64,000 nt of DNA, taken from assembly GCA_029582155.1 (NCBI GenBank), contig CM055901.1:21245597-21309596 (forward strand), in the 5' to 3' direction. Below, piece by piece: positions 35,901-38,900 of the stretch. A program made the position numbers and the translations under genes. The first letter of the stretch is position 1; every line of letters begins with the position of its first letter. The DNA is from Panopea generosa (Eukaryota > Mollusca > Bivalvia > Adapedonta > Hiatellidae). The notes beneath the pieces were generated by a model that saw only the letters and a list, made by a program, of their open reading frames with translations, searched no databases and was not told where the DNA came from.

Positions 35901-38900
35901 ATCTGGTGATGGGAGTATCGCAGCAGAGTCGAAACAGATACAGTCTGAAGATAGAAAATTAACATGTGATGTAGAGATACAGATTAAAGGTTTGTTTGTG
36001 TTTTATTGGAATATTTAGTCATTTTTATGCCATCGAAGGTTAACAGATGATCAGTTAACCTAATTATTCTTTCCTGAGAACATGGAAGGTTAACCAGTTC
36101 TTGAACACACCCATCTCTGACTTTAACTGATAACTTTCCCACTTGAATCAAGCTTGAAGCAGTGAAAGATGAATGACAATGAGATGCAATGTTGTATAAC
36201 AATCGTCATGGAAACTGTGACCGGGCAGGGATTCAAACTCACAATACTGTATTGATAGTCAGACGCTCTACCAATTGAGTTGACTGGGCCCAGCAGGAGA
36301 TAAAAAGTAAATGTGATATATAATTATGTATCTTTTTTTTTTCAATTCATCGTGATAATTAAAGGGAAGCATATACTTATATGCATCAAGCTATACAATT
36401 ATAAACATTTTAAAAGCAGAAAATTCTCCAAATAAGTAAATAATCAGAGAGAAAGTAACAGAAGCTTTACTACAATTATTGTACAAGTTATTCCAATATC
36501 CCTTTAGCGGTTAAAAGACATGTAACAGGCATAAAATACTGTCTATATGACCTTTGAACTATCAATACAATACTGACCATTAAAGATTAAGCTAACATAA
36601 CTGGAAGTTGCACTCTGCAATGTCATGAAACATTATGGAGCTGAAACAATGGTCAGATGGAGAAATGGACAGCACCAGGCTTAGCCCATAACCTCAGAAA
36701 TCTTTAGATGGTATCTTATACCACTTGTCCAACAAGTGATACTGTTCAACAGCCGACCAAAGGTTATCTCGAGTAACAAATAAGATAATGTAGGTAAACT
36801 TACACTCTCAAACACCCGAATGATAAATTAGATACAAGATTATTTGGTATATACAACTGGCAAATACCAACATGATAAATCAGATACAAAATTATCTGGT
36901 AAACACAACTGGCTAATGCCAGCATTAAAAATCAGATACAAGATTATCTGGTCAATAAAACTGGCTAACACCAGCATGATAAATCAGATACAAGATTATC
37001 TGGTCAATATAACTGAAAAACACCAGCATGATAAATCAGATACAAGATTATCTGGTCAATATATCTGGCTAACACCAGCATGATAAATCAGATACAAGAT
37101 TATCTGGTCAATATAACTGGCTAACACCAGCATGATAAATCAGATACAAGATTATCTGGTCAATATAACTGGCTAACACCAGCATGATAAATCAGATACA
37201 AGATTATCTGGTCAATATATCTGGCTAACACCAGCATGATAAATCAGATACAAGATTATCTGGTCAATATAACTGGCTAATACCAGCCTGATAAATCAGG
37301 TACAAGATTATCTGGCCAACATAACTGAAAAACACCAGCATGATAAATTATTTAAGACTAAGATAATTTGCTAGAATATCACTCATAAACATGATCATAG
37401 TAAATAAGATTATCAGGTCAAACTAACACTCACAAACACCAGCATGATAAAGGCAGCAGCAAAGTAGGAACTTCTAGCCATCCACATACTCACGAACCTG
37501 TAGTGGTCTCCAGTCACAACATTACGCAGGAAACCTGCAACATTACATAGCAAACCATTTCAATCATTCGGTTTCATGTACATGTATATACTTTTATATT
37601 ATACAACACCACACTTAAATAGCCAACATAAAATCAATTTTCTTATCAGATACTGTTTGTGACAGATTTACATGACCAAATTTTAATTTATGTGAACTTA
37701 AAAAAGATTATGGTTTCATTTTCACAAGAACAGATGAAGTCTTAAAGCTATAGTGAATTTTTAAACAAGAGGCCCATGGGCCTTAACGGCCACCTCCACC
37801 AGGGCCAAACTGCAAGACACAGGGACATGCAGTTCACAGTTATGATAAAGGACCCATATATGTCCATAATCATGGTTACCATTTGTTTCCCAGTGCTTCC
37901 TGTAATAAGAAGATTTTCAAAGTTTACCATGAATTTGACTGTTTTGACCCTGCCCCCAAGGCCCAAGGGAGGTGGGGACCATGCAATTCACAATTTTGAT
38001 TCACCCTTAGGTACCAAATCTGCATACAACATTTCATTATGATCGAGCATACGGTTTTTGAGAAATGTCAATTGTTTATGAACGCACAACGACGGACAAA
38101 AAACGATCGTGAATGGTATCTTCAGACAAAGTCTCAGGTGACCTAATAATTCAATGATTAATTTGTTTTAAAAAACAGTAACTATTGAAGTCATTAATAA
38201 CAGTTAATTAACATATATCAGCCTATGACCTTCTCTTATTGCCTTAGATTGACAGAATATATCTGTATAATATAAATATATATCATAATCTACACAATAT
38301 TCCAGTACCCTTATTATCCTCTTGTTCTGCCAGCTGTTTTATACTAGACATTAGTATATCGTCATATCCCAGAAACTCGTCTAGCAAAAATCTGCTGAAA
38401 GTGTCACCAAAACACTCATCTTTAAGTGGGTCTGTCAAGTAGAAAAAAAGTTCAACAGTTATTTAAAATATAATTATTTATTCTGAAAACATTATAAATG
38501 CTCAACAGTTCACAAACTTTTGATTTATTAACTTTCAAGATTATTTGTCAAGTTTAAGGACAAGGGGCCAAGCAAAAGTTGCTCACACCCACATCAGGTT
38601 CCAAAATTTGTCATATATAATCATGTGGTCCTCCAAGGCTTACATGTTGTTCAATACGGTGGTTCTACTCAAGTTCAATTCGAGGTCTTCCTCCACCAAT
38701 AAAACTGGATATGCTATATATATCCTGAATATGTTGAAAATGGCAATAAACTCCATTCATAAATGGATCTAGATTAATAACACCTTCCAAATATAGATTA
38801 ATAACACCTTCCAAATATATCCTCTTGTAACTTTTGTTATATATCCATAAACCCAACAAATTTGAAGAAATGTAAGTTATAAGCTATTATATGTTATTAT

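Follow-up and report, generated by a model that had tools for sequence, protein, structure and literature searches.

A mirage-like minisatellite that probably arose at the edge of membralin exon 6 in the bivalve Panopea generosa

The membralin gene of Panopea generosa contains, within its sixth intron, a tandem array of 52-bp units, each of which comprises on the minus strand 17 exon-like bases followed by 35 intron-like bases. We interpret this array as an exon-boundary minisatellite (mirage) born by tandem duplication at the edge of exon 6, a reading to which we assign a probability of roughly 0.88. Together with two companion arrays found at exon boundaries of myosin genes, it makes the phenomenon look recurrent in this genome. 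Positions given without a contig are those of the window, the whole stretch of 64,000 nucleotides that was analysed, which lies on contig C8 of a searched genome of 1.474 Gb in 39 contigs.

The membralin gene and the layout of the array

The coding part of the gene was modelled with 11 coding exons, GT-AG introns and consistent phases, giving a protein of 763 aa. The first 495 aa of the model match the whole of the Pfam Membralin profile (positions 1–392) with an E value of 2.6e-165, and the 125 aa around exon 6 match it at 9.6e-77, with 121 residues placed on 121 profile positions. Judged by this profile, exon 6 is part of a conserved protein family. When the first 456 aa were searched against the genome, all 10 matches fell at the window locus. 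No membralin relatives were found in the viral_contigs and genome_contigs databases; eight 17-mer matches in viral contigs were taken as chance. At E 0.001 the 125-aa piece matched no solved structure. The source exon had been numbered 7 in a preliminary description of this DNA; it is coding exon 6 in the model, and would be the seventh only with a non-coding first exon. Elsewhere in the window, open frames on the plus strand at about 50800–58800 resemble exons of what we take to be a BABAM1/MERIT40-like gene. The features of the gene and of the array are as follows.

29933..42096, minus strand: membralin gene, coding part (gene model)
37434..37534, minus strand: membralin coding exon 6, source of the repeated exon bases (gene model)
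35945..37433, minus strand: membralin intron 6, 1489 bp, host of the array, with 5′ donor GTGAGT (gene model)
37400..37451, minus strand: k0, the exon–intron junction block, 17 exon and 35 intron bases (alignment)
37359..37404, minus strand: k1, a diverged unit between array and exon, donor GT changed to AT (score 36)
36828..37347, minus strand: k2–k11, ten core units of 52 bp, with GC or TT at the donor place (TRF, alignment)
36776..36827, minus strand: k12, the farthest unit, an ungapped copy of the junction (40/52), donor GT changed to GA (alignment)
36798..36803, minus strand: putative donor-like GTAAGT inside k12, first base 36803, context AGT/GTAAGT

TRF delimited the array at 36811–37348 in intron 6, with a period of 52, 10.3 copies and 91% matches. 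In the gene model the edge of exon 6 is at 37434 and the donor GT occupies 37433–37432. The 52-bp ladder ends at 37331, with the exon edge coming next at 37435, a step of +104. This step is accounted for by the diverged unit k1, whose match to k0 (score 36) was reached by none of 1000 shuffles and which lies between k0, at a spacing of 47 bp, and k2, at a spacing of 57 bp; the old unit was consequently probably about 47 bp long, and the first 47 bases of k0 probably represent it. The array had been described as standing in perfect register with the exon. The 52-bp steps and the +104 offset were confirmed, whereas the register itself dissolves, since 104 is the sum of 47 and 57.

The core units are near-uniform, with identities of up to 100% (k5 equals k6 and k4 equals k7). 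A FastTree tree built on fewer than 60 columns places k0, k1 and k12 in one group with a support of 0.967, apart from k2–k11. Going by this pattern, the middle of the array is homogenised and its ends are not. The exon bases common to the units amount to 17–18 of the 101 in exon 6, with no whole exon copied.

Resemblance of the array to the exon boundary and its likely origin

The core consensus is identical to the exon 6 junction in 38 of 46 aligned columns, where the exon part matches at 17/17 positions and the intron part at 21/29 (Fisher p 0.019). The core units carry all 17 of the exon's last bases but one, which bears out the earlier statement that about 17 coding bases are shared by units and exon. 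The farthest unit, k12, matches the junction at 40 of 52 positions without gaps and is the top ungapped place in the window, on either strand, after the junction itself. Local alignment to the junction scored 51 for the core and 58 for k12; the 2000 dinucleotide shuffles run for each peaked at 31 and 28, respectively. Neither score was reached by any shuffle, so that identity between unit and exon stands well above the chance level. When the last or first 30 exon bases at each of the gene's 20 splice edges were searched in the adjoining intron, the exon 6 donor edge was the sole one with a copy there that beat all 300 shuffles.

Genome searches with two array units and with a 901-bp stretch found no second locus. 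These searches skip very common words and score best candidates only, and the uniqueness of the array is shown to that extent; at this sensitivity, the 52-bp repeat does not appear as a satellite at unrelated loci. The exon had been proposed as the likely ancestor, and the proposal is upheld by a similarity far above chance, by the failure of the searches to find a second locus and by the membership of the exon in a conserved family. Two further candidates in the gene were set aside. A repeat of 21 bp x 1.9 reported by TRF at 37517–37556, across the exon 6 acceptor, is not claimed as a second mirage: it was matched or beaten at 205 of 4000 random window positions, another acceptor of the gene does better (17/19), and its intron test gave p 0.047. 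The exon 4 acceptor, with a score of 31, is weak and was not counted, its exon bases alone giving p 0.68.

The probable direction from exon to array in membralin is drawn from the conservation of the exon. In the proposed course of events, a block of about 47–52 bp across the 3′ end of exon 6 and the start of the intron would have been tandemly duplicated, presumably by slippage or unequal exchange. The copy adjoining the exon body would have been kept as the working donor, leaving the protein unchanged, and the proximal donor is presumably the one used. Further copies may then have turned into intron and drifted. Later, a variant that lacked the GT donor probably multiplied within the block, its copies being made uniform by unequal exchange or conversion; the two ends, with k0 and k1 on the side of the exon and k12 farthest from it, would have been spared and would retain the older form. 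The diverged k1 that stands between exon 6 and the core was counted against this model. The likely mechanism is the usual one by which minisatellites arise and evolve in concert, acting here at the edge of an exon, and no special one is needed.

Translation past the real exon 6 donor gives VSVSLT and then a stop. Because read-through of exon 6 hits this stop, production of the protein would require predominant use of the proximal donor, and leaky use of decoy donors would be expected to truncate it. At the matching donor place, GT is absent from all 12 intronic units, with AT in k1, GA in k12 and GC or TT in the core. The preliminary description had the donor deleted from typical units; the loss is evident, but a clean deletion is not, the best alignment being one of substitutions with a 2-nt gap. 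It also had the farthest unit keeping a diverged donor-like segment, in agreement with k12 as an ungapped junction copy in which the donor GT has become GA. The putative site AGT/GTAAGT at 36803 in k12 scores 1.9, compared with 0.51 for the real donor, on a weight matrix.

Boundary arrays at control exons and the fate of copied splice sites

A control set of 83 exon hits with 165 usable edges was assembled from three conserved families of the same genome. It took 45 of the 47 listed matches to CCT chaperonins (two long single-frame matches were left out), 29 of 81 to myosin heads and 9 of 126 to kinesins, the last two as a non-random pick of compact stretches. A 57-aa myosin exon of the genome has squid and scallop entries as its eight top matches among solved structures, at 111.8 to 110.5 bits, with human myosin-7 shortly behind at 109.5 bits. 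Exon-boundary arrays were present in two of the 83 hits, both in myosin genes.

C14:10774430-10774641: donor array at a myosin-head exon (L070), 41 bp x 5.2, exon end 10774460
C2:55413110-55413335, minus strand: acceptor array at a myosin-head exon (L071), 44 bp x 5.2, first exon base 55413118

The C14 array begins within the exon and crosses the donor at CCAAAG/GTAAGTGCTG; downstream of the true GTAAGT, the intron units carry GTGAGT three times and GTGATT once. A genome search with two of its units found no other locus. In the C2 array, four copies upstream of the true acceptor keep the final CAG, with ATGAATTCC or ATTAATTCC after it. An intron at the same place is present in four myosin paralogues (L068, L069, L074 and L075), at whose edges no array was found and no such repeats were seen in the bases inspected. 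For the C2 case these array-free paralogues give the direction from exon to array, and the shared intron position means that no intron was gained there.

Other hits were left uncounted. On C15, the array of a CCT gene has its start about 22 bp into the intron and contains no exon bases, a myosin match with a score of 30 is low-complexity AT, and a CCT gene on C5 owes two edge hits to the duplication of a whole exon. This last region (L058) has two similar exons, at C5:34074088-34074225 and 34074452-34074592, which encode the same end part of the CCT protein and are possibly alternative last exons produced by whole-exon duplication.

Tandem arrays with a period of at least 20 and at least 2.5 copies cover about 10.5% of the 151,612 control bases. 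Arrays blind to exon edges would be expected to include about 17 of the 165 edges, compared with two observed (or three when only the match end is considered for the C15 hit), a comparison that is rough, exons being constrained. On this rough comparison, repeats show no attraction to exon edges, which fits the removal of most of them.

Repeats of other kinds were noted in the same material. Several introns contain members of a dispersed minisatellite family with a unit of 25 bp (AAAGGCGTCTATATTAGAGGTGTCC or the reverse complement of it), at 25685-25746, 29134-29203 and 33840-33953 in the window and also in L054, L057 and L065. Two CCT gene regions each hold one long unit in two separate arrays, L064 at 2445-3481 and 4933-6095 and L054 at 1365-3822 and 8277-8830, the units measuring about 183 bp and about 211 bp, respectively. 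In the window, an array of 66 bp x 15.6 at 21536-22562 has a plus-strand open frame, over part of its length, that encodes a 22-aa repeat (ENECNDITTIKEKLDIVSVVTE-like), and it is open on the minus strand too.

The abundance of tandem arrays in gene regions, at the coverage just given, and the recurrence of the 25-bp family in the window and at control loci are what speak for a chance resemblance, or for a dispersed satellite that merely sits in intron 6. This is scarcely credible for the membralin array, where no shuffle in 2000 matched the core or k12 and where the genome searches, which skip very common words, find this locus only. It is also very unlikely that the array has been kept for a role in membralin splicing or regulation, for example as an enhancer or through pairing with the exon end. 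The lower divergence between core and exon in the exon-derived part (17/17 compared with 21/29) is in keeping with such a role, but the exon's own constraint halves the divergence expected there and explains much of the difference, and no other sign of function was found. The array is most likely without a function of its own.

Selection against decoy donors, to which the preliminary description had attributed the loss of the donor, is a reasonable idea, in which copies with dead donors would have been favoured as a downstream donor brings a stop. The absence of GT from the donor place of every intronic unit, by way of three different changes, and the stop six codons into the exon 6 read-through are both consistent with it. 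The core units, however, represent one expansion, so that the losses of GT come to about three events, a number that drift alone would often yield at this divergence. Moreover, the GTAAGT of k12 outscores the real donor, the C14 myosin array retains four downstream GT donors and the C2 array four upstream CAG acceptors. The idea is left unsupported by these observations, and we consider it improbable that such selection shaped the array.

Relation to known boundary repeats and significance

As a probable product of tandem duplication at the exon 6 edge, the membralin array has the structural features of a mirage and apparently belongs to a known kind, in another phylum. Mirages, which are tandem duplications of exon–intron boundaries, are described in the amphioxus genes Adh3, BflGb6 and BflGb9 (the latter two globins), and further in TnC and PGBD5 (PMC3087553; PMC3902484). 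According to the available portions of these reports, units measure 10–72 bp in Adh3 and 150–160 bp in the globins, the repeats lie on either exon side with homogenised middles and excluded ends, and splicing is apparently unharmed (PMC3087553; PMC3902484). They are presented there as peculiar to amphioxus, with the suggestion that new introns may arise from them (PMC3087553). Set against the same portions, the membralin array is alike in that its units span the exon–intron boundary (k0 and 12 intronic units), in that its unit of 52 bp (about 47 bp in the old form) falls within the Adh3 range, and in that its core is homogenised with k0, k1 and k12 excluded. It differs in its host, a mollusc, and in the diverged k1 that parts the core from the exon. 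Splice signals are described in many, though not all, mirage units; the 12 intronic membralin units all lack GT at the matching donor place, and both myosin arrays keep their signals. No mollusc mirage was found among the matches listed in our literature searches, and within the open-access literature searched the two works that cite the founding amphioxus Adh mirage study both concern amphioxus.

Minisatellites with an average unit of 30 bp that touch exon–intron boundaries, and may form new introns, are reported from human segmental duplications (PMC2812944, in the part available). Given that study, repeats at exon boundaries in general are known beyond lancelets. The human repeats, as described there, lie in exons and make the coding sequence of young paralogues longer or divide it, whereas the coding sequence of membralin is unchanged in our model. 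In the accounts available, a short stretch of exon that includes a splice signal is duplicated in tandem both in intron gain through tandem genomic duplication (PMC4974935; PMC2891723) and in repeat expansion in Cryptococcus (PMC2395259). These systems create a new intron, while in membralin an existing intron would have grown. Tandem exon duplication, of which the CCT gene on C5 is one case, also leaves exon-derived copies in a neighbouring intron; it copies a usable exon, whereas the membralin units copy only 17–18 exon bases.

Two boundary arrays among 83 control hits, in addition to that of membralin, point to possibly thousands of exons. We propose tentatively, at somewhat less than even odds, that exon-boundary minisatellites are a standing genome-wide feature here, that they present the spliceosome with natural series of copied splice sites, from dead to intact, of which it has to use the one nearest the exon, and that introns outside the cephalochordates repeatedly grow and have their boundaries altered in this way. 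The three independent cases in this genome, which include both donor and acceptor edges and sites from dead to intact, would offer natural material for testing by what rule the spliceosome selects one of several nearly identical sites in tandem and at what rate the birth of repeats at exon edges alters introns.
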